Positions 25,227-47,858 of a DNA stretch of 64,000 bases are shown one piece after another. Each line of letters begins with the position of its first letter. Position 1 is the first letter of the stretch. Source of the DNA: Prolixibacteraceae bacterium (GTDB taxonomy: Bacteria; Bacteroidota; Bacteroidia; Bacteroidales; Prolixibacteraceae). The notes below the pieces were generated by a model. That model had not been told where the DNA came from, searched no databases, and was given only the letters and a program-made list of their open reading frames with translations. The DNA is taken from contig CP082230.1 of the NCBI GenBank assembly GCA_019856515.1, positions 3,782,001-3,846,000 on the forward strand, read 5' to 3'. A program made the translations under genes and the position numbers.

Positions 25227-27539
25227 ATGAGACTACAGGTGAAATGTTCTAAAAGAGTCAAGAGATGGATCTCCATCTTGTTTATTGGTTTAACTATTTG
25301 GATAATCTTACCAGTAGTTTCGTTTCATACACCAAAATCTACTGTCCTTTTTGGGCGAAATGATGAACTTATCGGCGCGACGCTTGCACAAGATCAGCAG
25401 TGGCGTTTCCCCGATAACCATCATATTGGTGATAAGTTTAAAGAAGCATTGATAACATGCGAAGATGAGAACTTCTATCACCATATAGGTGTTGATTTTA
25501 AATCTACGGTAAGAGCGATATACCTGAACATGAAATATGGAAAGGTCGTGAGTGGTGCTAGTACCCTTACGATGCAGGTATCTCGTATGGCGCTAGGGAA
25601 TAGATCTCGTAATATATGGAATAAGTTCTACGAGTCCGTGTTGGCAATAAAACTAGATATACTTCATTCCAAGGAGCATATCATTCGTATGTATGCTAAC
25701 AATGCTCCTTATGGTGGAAATATCGTAGGGATAGAAGCTGCCTCATGGCGATATTTTGGATGTGCCTCTACTAAGCTCACTTGGGCTGAATCAGCAACCC
25801 TGGCTGTGCTTCCAAATGCTCCTGCCGTTATCTACCCTGGGCGCAATAACAAGTTATTAAAACAGAAGAGAGATAGACTGCTAAAGAAATTGTATGCTAA
25901 AGGAAAGATGGATAAGCAGTCCTACGAACTTTCTCTATTAGAACGTATACCATCTTCAATACGCCCTTTTCCCAAGAAATTTATGCATGCCCTTCAATGG
26001 ACAAAAAGAATCTCTCCCGGTAATGCAACACACACTTCTCTAGATATAAATCTACAAAATAGAATTCAATCAATTGTTTCGAACTACTCTGTAAAGTATC
26101 GTGCCAATGGCATATATAATATTGGGGTGTTGGTGATGTCTGTCGAAACAGGAGAGGTGATCTCTTATATTGGCAATGTGGATTGGGATGACCCAAATCA
26201 AGGTGCTGTGGATATGGTGCAGGCCAAGAGAAGTTCGGGGAGTCTTCTAAAGCCTTTCCTTTATGCTGCCATGCAAGATGCATCATATATTACCCCCTAC
26301 ACCATTATTCCTGATTATCCTATCTTCATGAATGGATATGCTCCAAAAAACTTCGACCATAAGTTTAGAGGTGCTGTAGCGGCCAATCAGGCGTTAAGTG
26401 AATCTTTAAATGTTCCTTCCGTATTTATGTTGAGATCCTACTCAACCCCACGTTTCTTGTCGTTGTTAAAACACCTTGGGATGTCCTCCTTTTCTCGTTC
26501 AGCCGACTACTATGGGCTCTCGTTGATACTGGGTGGGGGCGAATCGAGTCTGTGGCAAATGGTTGGTGCTTATGCATCCATGGCAAGGGCTTTAGAAACA
26601 AGTCGCAAAGAAGCTGTATTCTCTCCAAATATTATTAAAGGAGGTACACTATATAAACGACAAGATATGCCATTAAGCAAAGCGGCTATATGGAATACCT
26701 TCAAGGCACTGCAAACGGTCAATAGGCCGATGAATGAAGTCGGATGGAAGTACCTTGATTCTTATGAGCCATTGGCTTGGAAGACGGGGACGAGTTATGG
26801 TTTTAAAGATGCATGGGCCATTGGAACAAATCCTAAATATGCCATTGGTGTATGGGTCGGAAATGCTACTGGAGAGGGGCGCCCTGCTTGTACAGGCGTA
26901 TTGGCTGCAGCACCTCTACTATTCGACATCTACCATCTACTACCCAAAGCACAATGGTTCCAAACCCCGTCAAGAGATCTTGAAGAACTTGCCGTGTGTC
27001 ACGAAAGTGGCTTTAGAGCATCCAAACGTTGCGCTAGAATAGATACCATCCTTGTTGGAAAACAAGTCTTTGAAACGGAACCCTGCCCATATCATCAAGA
27101 CGTGATGTTAGACGAGACAGAATCTTTTAGAGTAAATAGCTCTAACTACCCGATCTCAAAGATGGTGAAAAAGAAGTGGTTTATTCTTCCGCCACAAATG
27201 GCCTACTACTATAAGAAATACCATGCAGATTATGTGGTCGTCCCTCCACGTCTGTCTGAAGGCAAATGGAACACCGAAAATACTATTGGCATTATATATC
27301 CTTCTAAAGGTATCGCGATAACCGTTCCTAGAGATTTCAATGGTAAACCTACTGAAGTAATCTTAAGAGCTACATCAAGCCATGAAGATGAAGTGCTCTA
27401 TTGGTTCTTAGATGGCGAAAATATTGGAATGACTGAAATAATTCATCAAGTGGCTATCTCTCCAGAAATGGGAAGCCATCGATTAGTGATCCAAGATGAT
27501 AAAGGAAATGAAGCATCTGTAAAATTTACGGTGAATTAA
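25227..27539 (+). CDS. pbpC: Penicillin-binding protein 1C (bifunctional peptidoglycan synthase)
   Basis: A 770-aa inner-membrane protein with one N-terminal anchor (residues ~12-32). The glycosyltransferase (GT51) domain shows EDENFYHHIGVD, with catalytic Glu79, and SGASTLTMQVSRM. The transpeptidase domain has SLLK (Ser339, Lys342), SxN as SLN, and KTGTS at about 519. The C-terminal ~90 residues match the BiPBP_C domain typical of PBP1C. All active-site residues are present. It polymerises and may cross-link peptidoglycan; pairing with macroglobulin suggests envelope repair. Confidence 0.96.
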   Translation: MRLQVKCSKRVKRWISILFIGLTIWIILPVVSFHTPKSTVLFGRNDELIGATLAQDQQWRFPDNHHIGDKFKEALITCEDENFYHHIGVDFKSTVRAIYLNMKYGKVVSGASTLTMQVSRMALGNRSRNIWNKFYESVLAIKLDILHSKEHIIRMYANNAPYGGNIVGIEAASWRYFGCASTKLTWAESATLAVLPNAPAVIYPGRNNKLLKQKRDRLLKKLYAKGKMDKQSYELSLLERIPSSIRPFPKKFMHALQWTKRISPGNATHTSLDINLQNRIQSIVSNYSVKYRANGIYNIGVLVMSVETGEVISYIGNVDWDDPNQGAVDMVQAKRSSGSLLKPFLYAAMQDASYITPYTIIPDYPIFMNGYAPKNFDHKFRGAVAANQALSESLNVPSVFMLRSYSTPRFLSLLKHLGMSSFSRSADYYGLSLILGGGESSLWQMVGAYASMARALETSRKEAVFSPNIIKGGTLYKRQDMPLSKAAIWNTFKALQTVNRPMNEVGWKYLDSYEPLAWKTGTSYGFKDAWAIGTNPKYAIGVWVGNATGEGRPACTGVLAAAPLLFDIYHLLPKAQWFQTPSRDLEELAVCHESGFRASKRCARIDTILVGKQVFETEPCPYHQDVMLDETESFRVNSSNYPISKMVKKKWFILPPQMAYYYKKYHADYVVVPPRLSEGKWNTENTIGIIYPSKGIAITVPRDFNGKPTEVILRATSSHEDEVLYWFLDGENIGMTEIIHQVAISPEMGSHRLVIQDDKGNEASVKFTVN

Positions 27540-27705
27540 TTCAACATATCTAGTCTTCAATGTCATACACAGATCCCTATGGTTTAATAAGATCTTTTGT
27601 CTCTTGAGCTTCTAGTCCAACAGTATTGAATACACCTTGTCTATTGCAAGGCAAGAGTGTATGCTCTGATTTTCCAATGGAGTTAGATAATATCTAAATA
27701 TAAAC

Positions 27706-27742
27706 AAAGCCGGACACGCTGGGAGCGTATTCGGCTTTTCTT
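27706..27742 (+). terminator. Terminator downstream of pbpC
   Basis: Arms AAAGCCGGACACGCT (27706-27720) and its near-complement to 27738 enclose a GGG loop and end in TTTT. It lies about 165 bases after pbpC and probably ends that operon. Confidence 0.75.
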
Positions 27743-28441
27743 GTTGCTGAGAAATGCTTGAACATGTTTGTTAAAGCTTTTCTTGGTTATCGTATAATAA
27801 GCCTATAGCTTATTTGATTATCAAAAATTGAAAGGGTAATGATTTGAATAAAGGTCCTAATTAGTAAGGATTCTTCCATGAAAATAACGATAGAAGAACT
27901 ATGCAGTGTCTCTCTGTATTTATCTTCTGCTAATGTATATCATTTCAAATGATTTCCAAAATCTTTTCAATATATAGACATATAATTTCAATAATATGAT
28001 AGATCGATAGTATTAATGAGGTGCTGTATTATACCATACGATTTGAAAATTAGGGCTAAATGAGTGTGTCAACCCTCTAGCTTAAGAGTGTGTTTGTTGC
28101 CATTAATTCTCTAGTTTTCAGGTCTAAATAAATAGATTCTTTGTTTCGATCCATATATTGACAACATGCACTGAAGATGCTACAATTTCTAGCCCAGTGC
28201 GGAGCACTGCGGATAGATGAAAAACAGAGTAGGTGCTGTAAGTATGCTCCTTTTCATTTCATTGACCATCGTAAATCATAAAAGATGGTCGAACCTACAG
28301 CCTTCCACTTCTGAAATCATCATCAATCTAGGCTTAAAAGAATAGGTCATAAAATGATATACTTTCAGAGTGTAATATGTCACCTTCTCTTTTAACATGA
28401 AAATTTAAGGGATATTACGATTCTAAGAATGAGCATTAGTG
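27743..28441. other. Non-coding gap between converging genes
   Basis: About 700 bases without a convincing reading frame. Two compact inverted repeats stand out: CAGTGC/GCACTG with a 3-base loop near 28195-28209, and GACCATC/GATGGTC near 28264-28290. These could belong to an RNA or simply be relics. I recognise nothing else. Confidence 0.4.
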
Positions 28442-29578
28442 CTATCTCTTATTTATTTCGTTTAATTCATGCTCCGTGATAATTTCTTGAAGAATAAGGT
28501 ATTCACTTATGATAAGAATCGTCATATTTCTGTCTAACCCCTGTAAGAATAGACGTATCTTATCAATACATTCGCTTTTTTGACTCCGCTCATTGATAAT
28601 GGAGATAAAAGAGAGTTCGTTTCTTTGGGAGATAACCCTTATCTTTTCGATATCAAGTGATTCATACTGATGTAGAAGTGACAATAACTCCTCTGCAATC
28701 TCTCTCTTTTCATGTGTCTGATACAGTTCTTCAAAGAATTGATAGGTCTTATTATCCAATGGTGACTCTTCTATCCATGGTGTATCATCATACCCTTCAT
28801 CGAAATCGGAGGCATCCCATAGAAAATCTTTTCTTATGGATTTGGCCTTTTGCCACTGCGTCATCAAAGCTACTGATTGTTCTTGTTCGTGTTCTCCTAT
28901 ATTCTGTAGAAAAACAAGGATATCTAATGCCAACATACCTTCATCGGTATATTTAAATTTATCTCTAATAAGTTGCAGTAGCTTCGTTGAGGGAACAGAT
29001 TCTTTGCCGACATAATAGTGGTCCATAATGATAACTAGAGGAGGAAGAAACCCATCATCTAGAATTTCAAATATTGGAAAAAAATGAGGTTCAATATCTT
29101 CCACAATAAACTCAATCTGTAGATCTTGTATGATCTCGAAGGAGAGTATCACCATGGGAACCTTGATTGCCTCTTTTTGCTTTATCTCAAGGAGCTTTAC
29201 TGCAAAGGAGAGTAGCAACTGATGTAACTGGTGCTCTCTCGATAGATACTTCTCCTTAATCGATAGAGTGGTTAAATGCTCGTTGTAGGGCAGATAGTGA
29301 TGAAGGAATACAGGTAATTGCTCTAAGGTATGTAACACACGATAGAGGTTGGGAATATCACTAGAGCGCTCTAGATACCAGCAACCAAAGTGAATATGTG
29401 CTTTTAACTCCGAAAGCATATTCAAGACAAGGTCTGTTCCTACCAATATATATATCGAGTTGAGACTCTCAATATATTCAGAGATATACCTATTCGCTTC
29501 TCGTGTTGGAGCTTCTAAAATCTTCTCTTTTAACGTTTCGTACTCTTTATCAATAGTACTATGGTGATCGTATATCAT
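28442..29578 (-). CDS. Hypothetical protein, 378 aa, leucine/glutamate-rich
   Basis: I do not recognise a family. The protein has no signal peptide or membrane segment and appears largely alpha-helical with many Leu, Glu and Ile residues, for instance LHQLLLSFAVKLLEIKQKEAIKVP, a central hydrophobic stretch (LPPLVIIMDHYYVG) and an acidic patch (DASDFDEGYDDTPW). Helical-repeat or regulatory adaptor folds are possible. It is divergent from the pseudouridine synthase gene, with 75 bases between starts, and converges on pbpC. Codon use and AT content look like the neighbours. Confidence 0.75.
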   Translation of the reverse strand: MIYDHHSTIDKEYETLKEKILEAPTREANRYISEYIESLNSIYILVGTDLVLNMLSELKAHIHFGCWYLERSSDIPNLYRVLHTLEQLPVFLHHYLPYNEHLTTLSIKEKYLSREHQLHQLLLSFAVKLLEIKQKEAIKVPMVILSFEIIQDLQIEFIVEDIEPHFFPIFEILDDGFLPPLVIIMDHYYVGKESVPSTKLLQLIRDKFKYTDEGMLALDILVFLQNIGEHEQEQSVALMTQWQKAKSIRKDFLWDASDFDEGYDDTPWIEESPLDNKTYQFFEELYQTHEKREIAEELLSLLHQYESLDIEKIRVISQRNELSFISIINERSQKSECIDKIRLFLQGLDRNMTILIISEYLILQEIITEHELNEINKR

Positions 29579-29616
29579 TTCTTCACAGTTTAATCCGATG
29601 ACTCCCTCTTATTTAT

Positions 29617-29624
29617 TATTTTTG
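29617..29624 (+). promoter_or_regulatory. Putative promoter -7 element (TATTTTTG) for the pseudouridine synthase gene
   Basis: Matches TAnnTTTG about 30 bases before the ATG at 29654; no clear -33 box was found. Confidence 0.4.
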
Positions 29625-29653
29625 TAGCCTCATATTCAAACAGTGATGCTATC

Positions 29654-30556
29654 ATGCAAAATAAACTAGAAGTGGTCTCGATTCATATCGTTCCCCATAT
29701 TACAGAGGATATACGTTTATATAACTATTTAAAGGGTGTTTTTGTTGAGTTACCTTCATCAAAAAGTATTAAAAAGACACTAGCCAAAGGATGGATACAT
29801 ATAGATGGGCGTAGAGCTTCTTCTGGTGATTGGGTTAAGGAGGGAATGCAAATATCACTTTATCAACAAATAGAGACTCTGTTAAAGCCTTATGATATAG
29901 AGGTTAAGATAGTTTATGAAGATGATTGGATGGCTATTGTTGATAAACCTGCAGGCATCACTACAAGTGGAAATCGTTTCGATACACTAGAGAATGCACT
30001 TCAAGGAAAGTTAATCCATAGTGAGCAGCCAGATGCATACGTAAATCCACGAGCCATTCACCGTTTAGATAAAGCAACTTCTGGTTTGGTCATTATCGCC
30101 AAAACAAAGAGAACGCGAATGCTACTTGGTCAGATGCTAGAAGAACGAAGGATAACTAAGAAATATCAAGCCTTAATTATGGGAGATATTGATGTTGAGG
30201 GGGAGATCAAGCTACCTATCGATGGACTGTGTGCATGCTCTAAATACCGTAAAATAGATGTGGTGCCTTCTCTACGTTCTGAGAAACTGACACTCGTAGA
30301 GCTTTCTCCCATAACTGGTCGTACCCATCAGTTGCGTATTCATATGTCGCTAAGAGATACACCAATATTAGGTGATACTCTATATGGCGTGGAAGGAAAG
30401 ATACTAAAGCATAAGGGATTATTCCTATGTGCTTTTTCATTAGACCTCATTCATCCCATGACACAATGCTCTCTGCATGTCGAAATACCTCTCCCTCATA
30501 AATTCTATAAACGAATGTCTATAGAAAAACAACAAGCTGAGAAGTATCTTGATTGA
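29654..30556 (+). CDS. RluA-family pseudouridine synthase
   Basis: A 300-aa enzyme converting uridine to pseudouridine in rRNA or tRNA. The RluA catalytic motif HRLDKATSG is present, with the nucleophile Asp139, followed by the IIAKTKRTRMLLGQMLEERRITKKYQAL segment and the late GRTHQLRIHMSLRDTPILGDTLYG motif, all diagnostic of the RluC/RluD group. An N-terminal S4-like region (SSKSIKKTLAKGWIHIDGR, residues ~32-55) may bind RNA. Which site it modifies cannot be told from sequence alone. It overlaps no neighbour and appears to be a single-gene unit. Confidence 0.92.
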   Translation: MQNKLEVVSIHIVPHITEDIRLYNYLKGVFVELPSSKSIKKTLAKGWIHIDGRRASSGDWVKEGMQISLYQQIETLLKPYDIEVKIVYEDDWMAIVDKPAGITTSGNRFDTLENALQGKLIHSEQPDAYVNPRAIHRLDKATSGLVIIAKTKRTRMLLGQMLEERRITKKYQALIMGDIDVEGEIKLPIDGLCACSKYRKIDVVPSLRSEKLTLVELSPITGRTHQLRIHMSLRDTPILGDTLYGVEGKILKHKGLFLCAFSLDLIHPMTQCSLHVEIPLPHKFYKRMSIEKQQAEKYLD

Positions 30557-30836
30557 TACAATATACAATCCTAAGGTTAATGAAACTTTTCATAAATATG
30601 AAGATGAAGAGATGATAAAAACACGGGTGGCCTGTCAATTGACGAGAATTATTAAATCTAATATCCAATTTTCAAACATATTATTATCTCTGTCAGTATA
30701 TGCTGGGTTTAACATAACTGAAGGATGTTGTGCCACTTAAATCATATCATCTGTTTTTAGCATTAACCTTATCATAAAAACCTAATAGTTAAGGAAAAAA
30801 TATACTGTTTCGCTAAAATTATACAATATGAAATCG

Positions 30837-30844
30837 TAATTTTG
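30837..30844 (+). promoter_or_regulatory. Putative promoter -7 element (TAATTTTG) for the ClC channel gene
   Basis: TAATTTTG fits TAnnTTTG and ends only eight bases before the ATG at 30853, implying a very short or absent leader. No -33 box is evident. Confidence 0.4.
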
Positions 30845-30852
30845 CCCCCGTT

Positions 30853-32628
30853 ATGAAAAAAATGAATGCAATATTAAAGAAGATTGAGAAGTGGAGAATG
30901 GATACAATATCAGAACGCAAATTCATTCTACTTCTTAGTTTAGTTGTCGGGGCCTTGAGTGGCTTGGCTGCCATTACCCTTAAAAACCTAATTCATTTCA
31001 CCATTCACCATTTGACAGGAAACTTCAGTGTTGATGATGTAAGCTATCAATACTTAGCCTATCCAATGATCGGGATTTTAATCACTGTCCTTCTAATTAA
31101 ATATGTCATTAAAGAAGATCTAGGACATGGGGTCTCTAAGATCCTTTATGCTTTCTCAAAGAAGAATAGTAAGATCTCAAAACATAATATGTACTCTTCG
31201 ATGGTCACTAGTACCATCACCATCGGTTTCGGAGGTTCTGTTGGTGCTGAGGCTCCCGTAGCACTTACGGGCGCTGCGATTGGATCCAATCTTGCCCAGT
31301 TCTTTCGTTTAAACTATCGTGCGATTACCCTACTGGCTGGTTGTGGATCTTCTGCTGCTATCGCCGGAATCTTTAATGCGCCACTCGCTGGTCTCCTTTT
31401 TACGATAGAGGTACTAATGATCGACTTAACAATGTCCTCGTTGCTACCCCTGTTAATTTCAGCGGTGACTGCAACCACCACCTCCTACTTCTTGATGGGG
31501 GATAGCTATCACTTTAGATTTAGTCTCCATGAGTCTTTCGATGTGAACAATCTACACTGGGTAATTATTCTAGGTGTTTTATGTGGTCTTATATCAGTTT
31601 ACTTCACGCGTGTGATGAGATGGGTCGAGGGACATTTCAAAAAACAAAAGAGTTTCATACATAGAGTAATTATCGGTGGCGTAGGTTTAGGTCTATTAAT
31701 TTTCCTTTTCCCATCTTTATGGGGTGAAGGATATGTCTCTATCAATCAGATTCTAAATGGGAACTACACAGATGTGTTAAATAATTCTGTTTTCTTCTCT
31801 TTCAAGAACAACCAAACGATACTTATTCTTGTTTTTATTGCCATATTAGCATTCAAAGTATTTGCTACTGCAATCACAACGGGTGCAGGTGGTGTTGGGG
31901 GTATTTTTGCTCCTACGCTATTTATGGGATGCTTTGCAGGATTTATTTTTTCATCAATAATAAACCAAGGAAGTCCTGAGTTGGCAACCGAAAATTATGC
32001 TTTATATGGAATGGCTGGTGTCATGGCTGGTGTTATGTTTGCTCCAATGACCGCAGTATTCCTAATTGCTGAAATTACTGGAGGATATACGCTGTTTGTT
32101 CCGCTTCTGATCTCTTCCGCTTGTTCTTATTTGACGATATTAGCTTTTGAGAAACACTCGTTATACCATTCTCACTTGGCCGAAAGAGGTGAGCTTTTAA
32201 CACACAATAAGGATAAGACAGTTCTAACATTGATGAAGCTTAGAAGAGTGATTGAAACCGATCTCATTACTGTCGACGAGGATGCTTGTCTCGGTGATTT
32301 GGTTAAATTGATCTCTAAAAGTAAAAGAAATATATTCCCTGTGATCGATAAGGATAATAATTTTAGAGGCGTGGTCCTTCTTGATAATATCCGTAGTATC
32401 ATGTTCAACAAGGAGATGTATCATAAAACTTACGTCACAGATTTGATGGTTATGCCACCTGAAATGGTACACCCTGACGAAAGTATGGAAAAAGTTATGA
32501 AAAAATTTAAATCTTCGGGGGCATGGAACTTACCGGTCGTGGAGAATAGAAAATATATTGGTTTTATCTCGAAAGCAACTATCTTTAGTGCTTATAGAAG
32601 TGTTTTAGTTCACTTCTCCGATGAATAA
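30853..32628 (+). CDS. ClC-family chloride channel/transporter with C-terminal CBS pair
   Basis: A 591-aa membrane protein. The ClC selectivity motifs are visible: GSVGAEAP (with the gating Glu), the GIFNAPLAGLLFTIEV segment, and GAGGVGGIFAPTLFMG (GxFxP). About ten or more membrane helices occupy residues 20-430. The cytoplasmic C-terminal ~130 residues contain two CBS repeats (ITVDEDACLGDLVKLI…NIFPVID, and VTDLMVMPPEMVHPDESMEKVMKKF…NLPVVE), which usually sense adenine nucleotides. The gating Glu is compatible with either a channel or a Cl-/H+ exchanger. Confidence 0.95.
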   Translation: MKKMNAILKKIEKWRMDTISERKFILLLSLVVGALSGLAAITLKNLIHFTIHHLTGNFSVDDVSYQYLAYPMIGILITVLLIKYVIKEDLGHGVSKILYAFSKKNSKISKHNMYSSMVTSTITIGFGGSVGAEAPVALTGAAIGSNLAQFFRLNYRAITLLAGCGSSAAIAGIFNAPLAGLLFTIEVLMIDLTMSSLLPLLISAVTATTTSYFLMGDSYHFRFSLHESFDVNNLHWVIILGVLCGLISVYFTRVMRWVEGHFKKQKSFIHRVIIGGVGLGLLIFLFPSLWGEGYVSINQILNGNYTDVLNNSVFFSFKNNQTILILVFIAILAFKVFATAITTGAGGVGGIFAPTLFMGCFAGFIFSSIINQGSPELATENYALYGMAGVMAGVMFAPMTAVFLIAEITGGYTLFVPLLISSACSYLTILAFEKHSLYHSHLAERGELLTHNKDKTVLTLMKLRRVIETDLITVDEDACLGDLVKLISKSKRNIFPVIDKDNNFRGVVLLDNIRSIMFNKEMYHKTYVTDLMVMPPEMVHPDESMEKVMKKFKSSGAWNLPVVENRKYIGFISKATIFSAYRSVLVHFSDE

Positions 32629-32691
32629 AGCTTTTTCAATTCCAAAAACCAAAGTTCATTATTTATTTTTTAACCTTATCGAATTATTACC

Positions 32692-33972
32692 ATGGTAAAA
32701 GATACGCAAGTTTTCGATCTTATCGAGCAAGAAGACAAGAGACAACTGGAAGGTATTGAGCTGATCGCTTCAGAAAACTTTGTTTCTGATCAAGTGATGG
32801 AAGCAGCAGGTTCTTGTTTGACAAATAAATATGCCGAAGGATATCCTGGACACCGTTATTATGGTGGATGTCAAGTAGTAGATCAAGTGGAGCAACTTGC
32901 TATTGATCGCCTTTGTGAACTTTATGGCGCAACATATGCTAATGTTCAGCCTCACTCAGGTGCACAAGCTAATATGGCGGTGCTTCTTACTTGCTTGAAA
33001 CCCGGAGATAAATTTATGGGCCTTGACTTAGCGCATGGTGGACACCTTTCGCACGGTTCCCCTGTGAATAGCTCAGGATTGCTTTATAAGCCTGTGGCTT
33101 ACACAGTAGAGGAGTCTACTGGAATGATCGATTACGATAAAATGGAAGCAATAGCACTTACTGAAAAGCCAAAGCTGATCATTGGTGGTGCATCTGCTTA
33201 CTCTAGAGAGTGGGATTATGCTCGTATGAGAGAGATCGCGGATAAAGTTGGAGCTCTTTTTATGGTAGATATGGCACATACTGCCGGACTTATCGCTGCT
33301 GGTATCTTGGACAACCCTGTTCCTCATGCCCACATCGTAACGTCTACTACTCATAAAACATTACGTGGACCTAGAGGTGGTATCATCATTATGGGAGAAG
33401 ATTTTGTAAACCCTTGGGGGGTGAAAACACCTAAAGGCGTGGAGAAAATGATGTCTGCAATGTTGAATACTTCTGTATTCCCTGGTATTCAAGGGGGTCC
33501 TCTTGAACATGTGATTGCGGCCAAAGCAGTTGCTTTCGGTGAAGCCCTAAAACCAGAATACAAAGACTACCAAGCTCAGGTGAAGAAGAATGCTTCGGTG
33601 ATGGCTGAAGCTTTCGTAAACAAAGGATACAAAGTGATCTCTGATGGTACAGATAACCACCTAATGTTGATCGACCTTCGTACGAAATTCCCTGATATCA
33701 CAGGTAAGAAAGTCGAGAATATATTGGTGAAAGCGGATATCACAATCAATAAGAATATGGTGCCTTTCGATTCTCGTTCTCCTTTCTCTACTTCAGGTCT
33801 TCGTGTAGGTACGCCTGCAATCACAACTCGTGGATTGAAAGAAGAGCATATGGCTCCTATTGTTGATCTTATTGACGAGGTGATCTCAAATATCGAAAAT
33901 GAAGAGGTGATTGCCTCTGTGAAGAAAAGAGTAAACGAAATGATGTCTTCTCTACCTAAATTTGCTTGGTAA
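32692..33972 (+). CDS. glyA: Serine hydroxymethyltransferase
   Basis: A 426-aa pyridoxal-phosphate enzyme making glycine and methylene-tetrahydrofolate from serine. Family landmarks are [36 protein letters not shown], the PLP lysine in [14 protein letters not shown] (Lys at about 222), and [20 protein letters not shown]. Length and motif order are fully normal. It is convergent with the fucosidase gene, from which it is separated by a bidirectional terminator. Confidence 0.98.
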
Positions 33973-34010
33973 TACCAAATAATTTAGGTTCTAGATCATC
34001 TTAATACGAT

Positions 34011-34063
34011 AAAAAAAATCTCCTTAAGCTAAATAACACATTTAGCTTAATGGAGATTTTTTT
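34011..34063. terminator. Bidirectional terminator after glyA
   Basis: A 20+ base-pair hairpin (AAAAAATCTCC-TTAAGCTAAA against its complement with one bulged A) with a 7-9 base loop. It has A-tract and T-tract ends, so it can serve glyA on the + strand and, less directly, transcripts from the opposite side. Confidence 0.88.
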
Positions 34064-34226
34064 ATGCCCAGATGTATGTACCACAAGATAGGATATACGA
34101 GAAACACCCAACGTCAGGCTCCTTGTGCGAACCGTCTGTCAGGCGTTAATCTCTATTAATCTAAAATCCAATAATATAAGGGCTTTTTTGATTTGGTGCC
34201 CTTACCCAAGAGTATGAAAAATAATA

Positions 34227-35828
34227 CTAACTTCTATCGTAATTAACTAATTTCCCTTTTGGTACAATCTTGAATGAATATTGTGCTTTACAAGGCTTGT
34301 TATTAGGGAACTTAATCTCTAAACCTTTTGAGCTTCTTGTCCACTCTATCTTCTCTTTTGAGCCTAATAGCTCTACTCTTGCAATACCTTTCTTTGCAAA
34401 TTTCTCTCCCTTTGCTAGCTCTGGAAGAACCAACGTGCCATGGTCTTTCCATGTAGTGGTAATTGCATATACTGCGCTGTTATCTTTTTTACGTGTGTAG
34501 CGAACTTCGTTTTTACCATAATTGTGATAATCCCAGAATAGTAAGTTTCTGCTCTCTTTCATCTTGATCAACTGTGTGTCACCATGACCCGCAGTTCTCC
34601 ATTTACGGGTAGCATAAATGGCTTCACCATTAACTTTCAACCATGCACCCATTCCTTTCATGATATCTTGTTCTGCTTTGGCAATCGAACCATCTCCTTT
34701 AGGTGTAAGAGATATCAAGTAAATACCACCTCTACTTACCAAATCCACAAGGATATTTATGTGGTAGTCTGCACCAAAGCGATATTTCTTATTCTCTACC
34801 CAACACCATGGATAACCAATTGCTCTGTCCGAAAGAAAATAACCCGATGGATTTGGTTCCATGTCTCTGTTACCTTCGTAACAACGAATACCTACTCCTT
34901 TAGGGAAATTCCACTGCTTGCGACCTCCTGGTAGTTTGTTGGCAACCAAATGCCCTTTTTTGCTGTATTGATTCTCTAGGATATTCAATACAGAATCTTC
35001 ATTCAATACACCATCTCTTGGGTTTAATCCATCAAACCAGATGAAATCAGGATCATACTTGTCCTCTACTTCTCTTACTTTTGCAGCCCACTCTTTACCA
35101 AACTCCTCTGGTTGTACATAAAGTTTTGACTGAAATAGATCTTTATATTCAGGATTGAAGATAGGATTCCACTTCTTCTCCTCTTCTGTATATTTACCAG
35201 ACTTAAGAATCCAATCATATGTCCTTGCATGGTGAAATGTAGCTGCGAGTTTCATACCTCTTTTTCTTACTTCCGTCGCTATTTCACCATATATATCTTT
35301 TTTAGGCCCCATGTTCTTAGCATTCCATCTGGTCTGTTTACTATCCCACATACAGAAACCATCATGGTGTACAAGGCAAATACCCCCAAACTTACAACCT
35401 GCATCTGCCATCAATTGTGCCCACTCTCCAGCATCAAATTTAGGTGCCTTGAAATCGTTGATGATATCGATATATGTGTAATCTTTTAGGCTACCATACT
35501 TCTCTATATGGTGCTCTTTCGATTTACGATCATCTGGCTTGCGCGTGTTTTGTGCTTCATAAATACGCTTCACATAATCAGGACCAGCATATGCCGCCTC
35601 TGAATATGGTCCCCAGTGTGTATAACAACCAAATTTTGCATCTAAGAACCACTCTGGAATATCTTCTTTCTTAAGTTCTAGCCAACGGTTATTTATTTCA
35701 CCTTTCCAATCATTTCCTCCAACACCCTTAACCTTATGTGTAGGTAAGTTTTGAGGATTTTGAGCATTTACTACTGTTCCTGTAAATACAAGAATCAATA
35801 ACAATGCAACATGTCTCATAGTATTCAT
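34227..35828 (-). CDS. Secreted alpha-L-fucosidase, glycoside hydrolase family 29
   Basis: A 533-aa enzyme that releases terminal L-fucose from glycans. It has a signal peptide (hydrophobic core, cleavage near VNAQ, residue ~22). GH29 landmarks are WFLDAKFGCYTHWGPYSEAAY, FGGICLVHHDGFCMWDSKQTRWNA and FIWFDGLNP, the last holding the nucleophile Asp. The C-terminal ~90 residues form the usual beta-sandwich. No SusCD pair or sulfatase lies beside it, so it is an isolated glycan-degrading gene. It is transcribed leftward, convergent with glyA. Confidence 0.95.
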   Translation of the reverse strand: MNTMRHVALLLILVFTGTVVNAQNPQNLPTHKVKGVGGNDWKGEINNRWLELKKEDIPEWFLDAKFGCYTHWGPYSEAAYAGPDYVKRIYEAQNTRKPDDRKSKEHHIEKYGSLKDYTYIDIINDFKAPKFDAGEWAQLMADAGCKFGGICLVHHDGFCMWDSKQTRWNAKNMGPKKDIYGEIATEVRKRGMKLAATFHHARTYDWILKSGKYTEEEKKWNPIFNPEYKDLFQSKLYVQPEEFGKEWAAKVREVEDKYDPDFIWFDGLNPRDGVLNEDSVLNILENQYSKKGHLVANKLPGGRKQWNFPKGVGIRCYEGNRDMEPNPSGYFLSDRAIGYPWCWVENKKYRFGADYHINILVDLVSRGGIYLISLTPKGDGSIAKAEQDIMKGMGAWLKVNGEAIYATRKWRTAGHGDTQLIKMKESRNLLFWDYHNYGKNEVRYTRKKDNSAVYAITTTWKDHGTLVLPELAKGEKFAKKGIARVELLGSKEKIEWTRSSKGLEIKFPNNKPCKAQYSFKIVPKGKLVNYDRS

Positions 35829-36102
35829 ATCTCTCTAGTCTTTATCTATTAACTGATCGCAATTTGAGGAATACTCTAGACAACTGATATTTATGAATGC
35901 ACTTTTAATAAGACTTTTGTAACAACAACAAATATGGGATGTTGTTCGTGATATTTGTGGGGGTGAACCGAATGTTTTCTGTTAATTATGTATACAATTT
36001 ATAGTAATGGAATGTTGATACATATAAGAGAAAACATTATTTAGTCTCTCTCATGGATATCTTTCAAATACAACGTCTTATATTTTTGTCGTTATGCCTT
36101 AC
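35829..36102. other. Non-coding gap upstream of the fucosidase gene
   Basis: AT-rich sequence without a supported gene. It should contain the fucosidase promoter on the minus strand, but no clear TAnnTTTG box in that direction was recognised. Confidence 0.4.
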
Positions 36103-36462
36103 TTTTGCCAACTATATGATGGAGTCATCCATAACGTATTATGACTCGATATAGGTTGTGTCGTAAATTTAGATCTAAATCGAAAGGTTAAACCAGGTCG
36201 TAGTATCATACCATCAGCATTAATTCCTATTTCGCTTCGATCAAAGTTCTTCAAATACCCTAGTGGAGTAGACTTTATGTTATAGTAATTAATGAAGTGT
36301 TCCCATATTAAGATCTATTTGCATCATTAAAAGAGATCTCAAGGATTATATTGGCAGGTAGAACCTATTTAAAACACTCCATCTGTATTTGCTGCAATAA
36401 TGCGCTGAAAGTCGGGCCTATCTCATTTAACCTACTATGATGTGGATATAGTGAATATATCT
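36103..36462 (-). pseudogene. Probable decayed remnant of a protein gene
   Basis: Read on the minus strand, consecutive frames give protein-like text broken by in-frame stops and one frame change: a piece with LYPHHSRLNEIGPTFSALLQ then IQMECFK and a stop, then VLPANIILEISFNDANRS and a stop, then in another frame STPLGYLKNFDRSEIGINAD and MILRPGLTFRFRSKF ending at a TAA near 36103. The last piece resembles a terminal membrane-barrel strand. I see no intact start. The family is unknown and the call rests on subjective coding character. Confidence 0.3.
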
Positions 36463-36729
36463 ATAATGTCGTCTGCCTCCAATCTAGATATATGACATAG
36501 ATGCTTTTTCGTTAGATAGAATACATCTTATCACTCTTTCAAAAATGACCTTGCGTGAAAATAAAAACAGTATATTTAAAATCACCACTAAAAATAACCC
36601 AGACAGAGTTTAATTTACACGACCTCTTCTTGACTTTGTCGTGGGATGTAACTTATCTCCTCTCACAATAAAAAACCGTTATTTTCCACCTTCTCTCCAT
36701 CGATTCCCTACTTAACTATGCCTTAAAAG

Positions 36730-36949
36730 CTACCAACCTCAGACTTAATCCATCCCTAATCCGTCGTTAACCCGTCCCTAGTACGTCCTTTGTCCATGGT
36801 TTAGCCATGATTCGTCCATGGTTCAGCCATCGAAACCCCCGAAATCGATGGACAAACCATGGACGAATCATGGCTAAACCATGGACAAAGGACGGATTAA
36901 GTATATATTAAGGACGGATTAACGACGGATTAGGTGCGAGGTTGGTTAG
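36730..36949. repeat. Large inverted repeat built of 11-base tandem units
   Basis: The two arms (36730-36833 and 36845-36949) enclose an 11-base loop. The central 49 bases of each arm match in 46 positions. Each arm divides into eight consecutive degenerate 11-mers (left 36745-36832, right 36846-36933), for example ttcgtccatgg, tttgtccatgg, ggacggattaa and cgacggattag. One extra unit (gtatatattaa, 36901-36911) occurs on the right. The outer parts (ACCAACCTC / GAGGTTGGT) also pair. No terminator T tract or ORF is associated. Confidence 0.9.
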
Positions 36950-37240
36950 GGGGAGGTGTGATTTTGGTTGCTGTTGTTCCTGGGTTGGTGTATTTGTCGT
37001 GCTGATTTTAGGGAGTGGTTGATGTGGTGTGTTTGAAATTTGATTCTGGTGTTTTTTCTCTTTGAATGGGGTTATATATATAACGGATGCATTTTTTGAG
37101 ATGGGAGAGGAGTGTGGTGTGGATAGGATATGGGGTGTTGTGTGTTTTGTTTGAAAAAAGTTTTGGGCGTAACAGGTTGGTCGTAAGGGGCTGGGGGTGG
37201 AGGTCTGTTTTTTTCTAAGAAAAAACATGTTATTTTATTT
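36950..37240. other. Strongly G+T-skewed tract
   Basis: The + strand is dominated by G and T with few C, right after the inverted repeat. The only long frames are proline/threonine-rich minus-strand shadows created by the skew. I find no gene, promoter or RNA signature in it. The rRNA promoters begin some 240 bases further on. Confidence 0.6.
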
Positions 37241-37478
37241 GGAATAGTGGGTGAAAATGATGTTTCTTTGCATCGCATTTGAGAACAAATGCACACGTTC
37301 TACCGACATATTTACAGTGAACTGAATATTATCCCTTCCGCTGTGTGGCTCCATTGATTCTAGCGAGATGAGAAAGAGAGGACATAAGAAGCTGATAGAA
37401 AAACAGGGCATGATTAGAGGTAGGTAGGACATTGAAATTTTGACTAGAATATAAGGTGAAAAAATATTTCACTTTTCA

Positions 37479-37511
37479 TTTGGATCTTTCAAATGAAATG
37501 AGTTATCTTTG
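37479..37511 (+). promoter_or_regulatory. rRNA operon promoter P1 (TTTG - 21 nt - TATCTTTG)
   Basis: TTTG at 37479-37482 and TATCTTTG at 37504-37511, separated by 21 bases, fit the Bacteroidetes consensus. They lie about 260 bases before the 16S gene. Confidence 0.75.
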
Positions 37512-37584
37512 CAGCCACGTTCTAGAAAAAAGCGGAGAGTGTTTTTTAAGTCTCAATTAAGTTGAGAAATTATTTAAGAAAACA

Positions 37585-37617
37585 TTTGGAGTTTAAAGAT
37601 AAAATCGTTTATCTTTG
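37585..37617 (+). promoter_or_regulatory. rRNA operon promoter P2 (TTTG - 21 nt - TATCTTTG)
   Basis: TTTG at 37585-37588 and TATCTTTG at 37610-37617 with the same 21-base spacing as P1, giving tandem promoters 106 bases apart. Both lie outside the duplicated unit, so only the first operon has them. Confidence 0.75.
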
Positions 37618-37668
37618 CAACCGCAAAAACATCGGCGCAACGGCGACGATGGATGAATAAGATACAAA

Positions 37669-37680
37669 GTTCTTTGAAGA
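37669..37680 (+). promoter_or_regulatory. boxA-like antitermination sequence, leader of operon 1
   Basis: GTTCTTTGAAGA resembles boxA of rRNA leaders and a related GTTCTTTGACAT occurs in the 16S-23S spacer (39663-39674). It marks the exact left edge of the duplicated unit. Confidence 0.5.
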
Positions 37681-37770
37681 TATTTTTTGATAATGACAAG
37701 TACAAAAAAGCAACCGTCAATCTAATAGATTTTTGAGTTTTTGTTGAGCTAAATTAATTAACTTTTTATA

Positions 37771-39295
<1,525 letters not shown>

Positions 39296-39431
39296 GGAGC
39301 CGACATTAACGGTAAAGAAAATCGACGAGATTAGGTTGTTTTTTCTTGTCATATCAAAAAACCTTATATACCCACATAACCAAAGTGGATAGCGTTAGGC
39401 TGAAAAACTAAGGTGGTTATGTTTTAAACAT

Positions 39432-39505
39432 AGTCCCGTAGCTCAGCTGGTTAGAGCGCTACACTGATAATGTAGAGGTCCCCAGTTCAAGTCTGGGCGG
39501 GACTA
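39432..39505 (+). tRNA. tRNA-Ile (GAT), operon 1
   Basis: Acceptor AGTCCCG/CGGGACT, D arm GCTCAGCTGGTTAGAGC, anticodon arm CTACA-CTGATAA-TGTAG with anticodon GAT, T arm CCCAGTTCAAGTCTGGG, discriminator A. No CCA is encoded. It sits in the 16S-23S spacer. Confidence 0.98.
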
Positions 39506-39533
39506 CAATCGTAATATTATTTATACGAGGTTA

Positions 39534-39610
<77 letters not shown>

Positions 39611-39662
39611 CACATTTATATTGATTTAGTTAGATTTAATTTGATTAGATCGGTGTATATAA

Positions 39663-39674
39663 GTTCTTTGACAT
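39663..39674 (+). promoter_or_regulatory. boxA-like sequence in the 16S-23S spacer, operon 1
   Basis: GTTCTTTGACAT, related to the leader boxA-like site, lies 70-80 bases before 23S, where a second antitermination signal is common. Confidence 0.45.
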
Positions 39675-39743
39675 TCTGGAAAAAAGTAATCTGTAAAAGA
39701 ATACAACAGATATCGAGATTAACATTAAAGGTTAATTATAATA

Positions 39744-42620
<2,877 letters not shown>

Positions 42621-42749
42621 AGAACAAAAGATTAGTTGTATTTAGATTACTTTTTCCAGGAGCATGTCAAAAAGATATATTGAACTATGTATGCTGATAA
42701 TGTTAGATTATAACATTTAAGTCAGATATAAATAACCGTATTTAGAATT

Positions 42750-42862
<113 letters not shown>

Positions 42863-42869
42863 GTAAAAG

Positions 42870-42895
42870 ATCAATTCACTAGAGTTGATTTTTTT
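42870..42895 (+). terminator. Terminator of rRNA operon 1
   Basis: ATCAATTC and GAGTTGAT pair (one G-U) around ACTA, followed by seven T. It ends just 11 bases before the second duplicated unit. Confidence 0.85.
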
Positions 42896-42906
42896 ATGAA
42901 CTAAAC

Positions 42907-42918
42907 GTTCTTTGAAGA
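42907..42918 (+). promoter_or_regulatory. boxA-like antitermination sequence, leader of operon 2
   Basis: GTTCTTTGAAGA begins the second copy, directly behind the operon 1 terminator. No TAnnTTTG promoter was found between them. Confidence 0.5.
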
Positions 42919-43008
42919 TTTTTTTTGATAATGACAAGTACAAAAAAGCAACCGTCAATCTAATAGATTTTTGAGTTTTTGTTGAGCTAAATTAATTAAC
43001 TTTTTATA

Positions 43009-44533
<1,525 letters not shown>

Positions 44534-44669
44534 GGAGCCGACATTAACGGTAAAGAAAATCGACGAGATTAGGTTGTTTTTTCTTGTCATATCAAAAAAC
44601 CTTATATACCCACATAACCAAAGTGGATAGCGTTAGGCTGAAAAACTAAGGTGGTTATGTTTTAAACAT

Positions 44670-44743
44670 AGTCCCGTAGCTCAGCTGGTTAGAGCGCTAC
44701 ACTGATAATGTAGAGGTCCCCAGTTCAAGTCTGGGCGGGACTA
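44670..44743 (+). tRNA. tRNA-Ile (GAT), operon 2
   Basis: Identical in sequence to the operon 1 copy: anticodon GAT, no encoded CCA. Confidence 0.98.
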
Positions 44744-44771
44744 CAATCGTAATATTATTTATACGAGGTTA

Positions 44772-44848
<77 letters not shown>

Positions 44849-44900
44849 CACATTTATATTGATTTAGTTAGATTTAATTTGATTAGATCGGTGTATATAA

Positions 44901-44912
44901 GTTCTTTGACAT
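44901..44912 (+). promoter_or_regulatory. boxA-like sequence in the 16S-23S spacer, operon 2
   Basis: GTTCTTTGACAT, the second-copy equivalent of the site at 39663. Confidence 0.45.
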
Positions 44913-44981
44913 TCTGGAAAAAAGTAATCTGTAAAAGAATACAACAGATATCGAGATTAACATTAAAGGTTAATTATAATA

Positions 44982-47858
<2,877 letters not shown>

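Follow-up and report, generated by a model that had tools for sequence, protein, structure and literature searches.

Genus-wide divergent arrays of 11-base repeats in Prolixibacteraceae as candidate sites of local outward DNA synthesis

We analysed a window of 64,000 nucleotides (GCA_019856515.1, contig CP082230.1, positions 3,782,001 to 3,846,000) from the 5.19-Mb single-contig genome of a Prolixibacteraceae bacterium, here called G000. The long inverted repeat of this window is formed by two divergent arrays of 11-base units and is one of 38 copies of an intergenic element on the G000 chromosome. The same family is present in the other genomes of the genus, the draft G001, the closed G002 and G003. 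In G000 and G001, the DNA on both sides of the copies carries a strong leading-strand-like asymmetry over about 10 kb. By its genomic signature the element is origin-like, and it is not an origin of the DnaA type. Our preferred reading, to which we give a probability of roughly 0.45, is that the elements are genus-wide sites where replication starts locally, or as a back-up, and runs outward, besides the main origin. The asymmetry is an evolutionary record, and it is from this record that we infer initiation at the elements.

The inverted repeat had been predicted from the window sequence alone. The arms at 36732-36833 and 36845-36946 flank an 11-base loop and are paired at 84 of 102 positions. 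Of the central 49 positions, 46 are paired, which is precisely the figure originally claimed; in five 3-mer-block shuffles of the window, no 49-base inverted repeat had more than 28-30 paired positions. The strict 11-base register is equally clear. Over 34 G000 copies (four of the five near-identical rRNA-linked copies were left out of this statistic), the match rate at lag 11 is 0.55-0.59 within the arms versus about 0.24 at other lags; farther than about 110-120 bp from the centre, on either side, it is close to that of other lags (z 0.2 to 2.5). The blocks follow each other consecutively as predicted, but their number had been put at eight per arm and we counted nine, the outer ones being degenerate. 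Read outward from the loop, the inner four blocks are CCATGGACAAA-like and the outer, more degenerate ones GGACGGATTAA-like. An additional 11-mer had been assigned to the right arm: it corresponds to an 11-base unit of this arm that is bulged out in the minimum-energy fold. The coordinates of these features are collected in Table 1.

Table 1. Features of the element and its surroundings in the window.
Feature	Position	Strand	Description
Left arm	36734..36832	-	Nine 11-base blocks outward; innermost CGATGGCTGAA, CCATGGACGAA, TCATGGCTAAA, CCATGGACAAA; outer GGACGGATTAA-like, degenerate
Central loop	36833..36845		AAACCCCCGAAAT in the window copy; AAT to AAAACCCCTAAAT in relatives
Core AATCGATGGACAAACCATG	36843..36861	+	Degenerate-core pattern; 37/38 G000 copies mismatch-free
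Right arm	36846..36944	+	Nine 11-base blocks outward; better conserved arm across the family
Gap holding the element	35829..37769		From alpha-L-fucosidase gene end (35828) to 16S rRNA start (37770)
Left flank	26800..36730		+ strand GC skew -0.195 at 34-36 kb
Right flank	36950..46800		G-rich on + strand; taken up mostly by two rRNA operons in tandem, directed away from the element

We searched the genome and its relatives for the element, as the original prediction had proposed. In G000, the core pattern with up to two mismatches allowed recovered only the 38 places, one of them with a single mismatch, and a backwards control of the pattern gave no match. The family has at least 19 copies in G001 (19 places confirmed among 32 first-look candidates), 39 in G002, of which 38 have at most one core mismatch, and 61 in G003, where 40 core matches were used for gene context and skew and the other 21 were counted by core alone; in G002 and G003, two-mismatch cores were covered only among the matches listed. 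None of 37 genomes of other genera (21 of the same family, 16 of the same order) contained a member of the family. The exact G000 core had no match in a wider contig scan, from which the window's own genome was possibly excluded. With a looser core pattern the same scan returned 49 stretches: 45 in the MAG Prolixibacteraceae McBI.27, which is G003, one in Prolixibacteraceae AH-541-J21, which points to G001, and three in MAGs labelled Marinifilaceae McD1.32 and Vallitalea McD1.14. The element-bearing contigs of the latter two MAGs (JAOARN010000021, JAOARN010000105, JAOARM010000030) are short and are perhaps mis-binned or from a further species of the genus. Three contigs of the G001 draft (C106, C114 and C144) end inside or near an element, which suggests that short-read assemblies may under-count the family.

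Copies are alike within one species, while loop and units differ between species. The outer arms are of two types, A and B, in G000 and of other types in the other species; only the centre is constant. Past the centre we found no flanking DNA common to all copies, and the small repeats near some of them are separate families. The original prediction had named two outcomes that would refute it, and neither was observed: the outer ends vary between copies, unlike those of a mobile element, and relatives keep the 11-base register instead of showing scattered matches. Conservation concerns the outward-facing units of each array, more so in the right arm than in the left. This anatomy fits what would be expected for two divergent protein-binding arrays with units about one helical turn apart. 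Together with the variable outer ends and the 38 separate places, it would argue against an insertion sequence end, a terminator or a CRISPR. Type A (GGACGGATTAA) copies are located at 2.65-4.84 Mb of G000, except one at 0.76 Mb (clustering P 0.004), and type B copies elsewhere and interspersed with type A.

The strand asymmetry around the elements was analysed at the 20 of 38 G000 loci with 20-kb surroundings. The raw GC skew of the + strand, averaged out to 9-10 kb, is close to -0.12 left of the copies and +0.08 right of them, and it jumps by about 0.46 at the element centre. Four-fold degenerate sites were then chosen to take out codon and gene-direction effects. Over the 253 genes that lie no farther than 10.5 kb from a copy, the skew at these sites passes from C-rich on the left to G-rich on the right with a side coefficient of 0.198 +/- 0.013, which is 0.26, 0.21, 0.157 and 0.156 in successive distance bins. 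The chromosome-arm (leading/lagging) effect far from elements is smaller, 0.122. The AT skew near the elements shifts in the same direction as on the leading strand. The right-minus-left difference is positive at each of the 20 loci and ranges from 0.16 to 0.68, compared with a mean of 0.02-0.04 and a maximum of 0.087 over 3,000 draws at element-free gaps of control stretches; six-kb loci with enough sites (31 of 38) are positive in 29 cases. The size of the flip at the 20 loci does not change with how far they lie from the main origin or from the next element. Sides upstream and downstream of the main fork deviate to about the same extent, as do the two chromosome arms. Inversions and one-sided fork stalling were rejected as its source, since both sides deviate in both arms.

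We also counted words around the same loci, leaving aside 800 bp on either side of the centre. Among 4- to 6-mers, the strongest outward bias is that of leading-strand words, so a Chi- or KOPS-like polar motif is disfavoured as the sole source of the skew. Some 8-mers are more outward-biased than in controls (25:1 versus 7:5 for one of them), and a contribution from such words is possible. At 10-60 kb from the elements, the side effect is near 0 (44 genes, mostly from the window), and beyond it is inconsistent. Forks from the elements, if real, would therefore not normally run far, and these values do not support a full multi-origin model, in which the skew reverts midway between neighbouring elements. 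The strand-corrected skew of the whole chromosome reveals one main origin at about 3.0-3.3 Mb and one terminus at about 0.8 Mb. DnaA boxes, searched with a consensus pattern, are not enriched: one strict box was found in 37 kb of element flanks and two in 54 kb of control gaps, and a loose pattern gave 7 and 15 matches, respectively. The element flanks thus lack the DnaA-box cluster of a DnaA-type oriC.

The copy of the window itself is a poor test of the flip, because its right side is taken up by rRNA genes and its left side is mixed: the five genes within 8 kb there have 4-fold values of -0.10, +0.42, -0.11, -0.10 and +0.13. The rRNA stretch was left out of the gene statistics, and the fit of the side coefficient used window bases 1-37000. 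The rRNA operons of the chromosome read away from the main origin.

The same analysis was carried out in the relatives. In G001, the side coefficient at 4-fold sites is 0.149 +/- 0.018 and 14 of 14 loci are positive (15 of the 19 places entered the test and 14 passed the site minimum). The flip of G003 is weaker (0.075 +/- 0.019; 25 of the 35 loci positive that passed the minimum among 40). When its copies were oriented, the effect was seen on the left only (-0.126 +/- 0.027 versus 0.024 +/- 0.026 on the right), the chromosome arm being uncontrolled in this comparison. In G002 the flip at 4-fold sites is absent, with a coefficient of 0.003 +/- 0.019 and 17 positive loci among the 32 of 39 that passed the minimum, and the AT shift is of opposite sign (+0.043 +/- 0.015); a clear leading-strand-like AT shift is seen only in G000. 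The asymmetry switch of leading-strand sign that marks an origin is therefore observed in G000 and G001, is weaker and one-sided in G003 and is missing in G002. The elements of G002 are the most regular of all, and this genome is the strongest evidence against local initiation. Oriented analyses of 38 of its 39 copies (one lacks a recognised anchor) showed that the left arm is more degenerate in G002. This degeneracy may matter for the missing flip, or the asymmetry may not be the main function of the element.

In the local-initiation reading, a cognate protein would load on the two divergent 11-base arrays around the fixed core and would open the centre between them. DNA synthesis would start at this centre and run outward in both directions for about 10-20 kb. 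Such starts would have to be frequent enough to outweigh the imprint of the main fork near the element, and each element would have to reside at its site for a long time for the asymmetry to build up as a record of outward synthesis. The conserved core, the strict 11-base register, the minimum spacing and the positions shared between species also count in favour of this reading. The wider claim is that dozens of spaced, DnaA-box-poor, iteron-like sites per chromosome start bidirectional synthesis and, within about 10 kb to either side, outweigh the imprint of the main origin, so that the chromosome would be a multi-origin or an origin-plus-local-origins one; we put it forward tentatively, with less confidence than the local reading. 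Bacterial chromosomes are taught as having a single origin. A dispersed element with conserved positions, found dozens of times per chromosome at the centre of an origin-like asymmetry, would be one of two things: a multi-origin system in bacteria, or a chromosome element of a new kind with a strong effect on mutation nearby. A literature search, thin in its coverage of subscription journals, returned no description of this element family or of a local origin-like skew at dispersed bacterial repeats.

Elements may either cause the flips or settle at pre-existing ones. One G000 site that has no element, at a position where G001 has one, still flips, which leaves room for placement at older flips on the basis of this single case. 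At the two G001 sites lacking an element that G000 has, the skew is 0.102 +/- 0.064, a value that carries no weight here because G001 has an element of its own within a few kb.

Two known kinds of origin resemble the element. In archaea with multi-origin chromosomes, origins carry inverted arrays of origin-recognition boxes. The likeness lies in the inverted arrays of short sites around a centre, the presence of several per chromosome, the local change of skew and the bidirectional outward asymmetry. Here, however, the chromosome is bacterial and has one main origin by skew, the sites number 38-61, the units are 11 bp and the effect extends over about 10-20 kb. In the iteron origins of plasmids and phages, direct repeats at helical-turn spacing constitute the initiator-binding array. 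Direct repeats in helical register are likewise found in the G000 arms, but here they are dispersed on a chromosome, form two divergent arrays of an 11-bp unit and have no known linked rep gene. In both comparisons, an initiator bound to the arrays of the element is putative.

The elements of G002, which have no asymmetry, make chromosome anchoring the main rival. A nucleoid or SMC/gyrase-type protein on the arrays would set domain borders, and the skew would be a side effect of topology or repair. We consider this explanation unlikely overall, although it has the placement of the copies on its side. They sit in unusually long gaps between longer genes: the median gap holding a copy is 1010 bp in G000, 1075 bp in G002 and 794 bp in G003, whereas control gaps in 20 stretches of G000 have medians of 81 bp (tandem), 132 bp (convergent) and 372 bp (divergent), the ORF length cut-offs differing slightly between element and control gaps. 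A flanking gene was not found for 1, 4 and 4 copies in G000, G002 and G003, respectively. Several arrays are overlapped by short ORFs (about 70-150 aa) to which no meaning could be assigned; in the window, a 106-aa ORF on the - strand (36908-37228), for which no Pfam match was found, extends into the right arm.

Even or minimum spacing is a further point for an anchor. The copies avoid one another: the minimum gap is 27.6 kb in G000 (P 2e-4), 24.5 kb in G002 (P 1.5e-4) and 15.9 kb among the 35 within-contig gaps of G003 (0 of 50,000 simulations). In G002 the spacing is near even, with a coefficient of variation of 0.43 against 0.96 +/- 0.14 at random (0 of 200,000 simulations), and in G000 and G003 it is uneven overall (0.80, P 0.11; 0.77, P 0.15). 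Positions are conserved at the kb scale with local shifts, as an anchor would also predict. By synteny, 13 of the 19 G001 elements examined have a G000 element no more than about 6 kb away, where about 1.7 would be expected by chance (38 x 12 kb of 5187 kb); two others fall in G000 control stretches without an element and four are unmatched in the DNA compared. Six of the 13 shared elements are shifted by about 1-6 kb, for example across one gene. When three shared sites were aligned, units and loop were largely replaced at two, and at one the loop was kept and the outer part differed; a fourth lies within a block that is 98% identical overall. Few positions are common to G000 and the more distant G002 and G003. 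Against the anchor stands the two-sided leading-strand-like bias, which over about 10 kb is stronger than the bias produced by the main origin and for which anchoring offers no simple reason.

Less likely still is a selfish palindromic repeat, MITE- or REP-like and without host function, that would break at forks after hairpin extrusion, with misdirected outward repair writing the skew. The high copy number of the palindrome and its strong fold as single-stranded RNA would agree with this, as would the other small repeat families in the same gaps and the SbcD and RecG genes, which all four genomes carry; as neither gene is missing, its loss was rejected as a cause of the asymmetry. Normal two-ended break repair sends forks inward and would give a skew of the opposite sign. 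No decayed copy was found among the G000 core matches with up to two mismatches; copies with stronger decay would escape both the pattern and the similarity search. The constancy of the core, the minimum spacing and the retained positions make break and repair at a selfish palindrome less likely, and the absence of co-variation between arms also speaks against it. The mobile-element gene search in G000 covered Y1 transposases and found only two genes, at 4.67-4.68 Mb, none beside a copy; the nearest copies are at 4.63 and 4.76 Mb. In two pairs of sites occupied in G000 and empty in G001, the gap sequences are too diverged for a target-site duplication to be read.

REP and MITE kinds each fail a defining feature in our tests. 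The constant terminal inverted repeats of a MITE are lacking, the outer ends varying between copies and the centre alone being constant. REP sequences are described as 20-40 bp with GTAG/CGTC tags, located mostly between unidirectional and convergent genes and possibly moved by RAYTs (PMC3733652). Like REP/BIME, the elements are dispersed extragenic palindromic repeats, but they are arrays of 11-mers of about 200 bp, also occur between divergent genes (13 of 38 G000 copies) and have no Y1 transposase adjacent. The BrickBuilt MITE of Porphyromonas gingivalis is always intergenic, has 19 copies in one strain, tandem 23-nt units and a limited host range; its single direct array has small inverted ends and acts as a promoter (PMC4596501). 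The two families share their occurrence in Bacteroidota, the intergenic location, the tandem short units (23 nt is about two 11-mers) and the limited host range; the single direct array of BrickBuilt differs from the two divergent 11-mer arrays, minimal spacing and local skew flip found here.

It is improbable that the element is merely placed or kept at pre-existing divergent gene borders, with the skew arising from transcription and gene orientation. Genes around the element do read away from it more often than towards it (129 of 207 beyond the nearest; far from elements, 112 of 243 genes are co-oriented with the main fork), a bias that we also count in favour of local initiation. In G002, a weak raw skew difference of 0.06-0.10 vanishes at 4-fold sites, as this explanation predicts for that genome, and is what gene orientation would give. 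Near G000 elements, however, the gene-strand coefficient is about 0 at 4-fold sites, divergent element-free gaps reach at most 0.054, and the raw flip persists on average at the nine loci where both neighbours read towards the element. For G000 the explanation is thus refuted by the controls, unless transcription is unusual there, for example very strong outward non-coding transcription.

The original prediction had offered two readings of the repeat, a helix-phased protein array, which we favour, and an RNA or DNA hairpin. The arms of a copy were compared with those of other copies, dropping four of the five rRNA-linked G000 copies and keeping 38 of 39 G002 copies (one lacks a recognised anchor). 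With a fixed loop, own-arm and cross-copy complementarity were equal in all 12 bins (G000 types A and B, and G003; P 0.23 to 1.0). With a freely chosen loop, G000 had a small own-arm excess that was confined to the innermost 22 bases (P 0.02 and 0.002), while G002 and G003 showed none. Pairing is therefore not mainly what selection keeps, despite the strong fold. A long functional RNA hairpin, in which each A-form turn would hold one 11-mer, was thus rejected and has very little chance of being correct: the fold of the element strand as single-stranded RNA is strong (-137.8 kcal/mol, z -19.6) and 11 bp is one turn of an A-form helix, but the arms of a copy do not co-vary, Rfam at a relaxed threshold gave no family at gathering score in 36000-37790 (the matches listed, all below it, were mostly microRNA hairpins), and spacing and skew are left unexplained.

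Several further observations were made around the copies. The 13 16S genes of G000 form seven clusters at 2.67-4.07 Mb, that of the window starting at 37770. Five clusters consist of two or three operons in tandem, and each of them is preceded by an element about 0.78-0.94 kb before its first 16S gene; the two single operons have no such upstream element. In the window, an alpha-L-fucosidase gene (Pfam; 34227-35828) lies between the serine hydroxymethyltransferase gene and the element; in G001, about 0.3 kb separates the serine hydroxymethyltransferase gene from the element, which leaves no room for an alpha-L-fucosidase gene between them. Loci L063 and L156 share about 5 kb at 98-99% identity, and L231 and L172 about 1.9 kb at 97%, in both cases between two species. 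Most other compared stretches are 65-90% identical, which suggests recent transfer of these two. Further dispersed repeats of about 75-155 bp are found near several elements (L032, L061, window positions about 36590-36620 and other flanks), and one of them holds AGACAGAGTT. At 4.84 Mb of G000 (L065), several repeats of about 130 bp lie in both orientations over about 2 kb, possibly as a cassette-like array.
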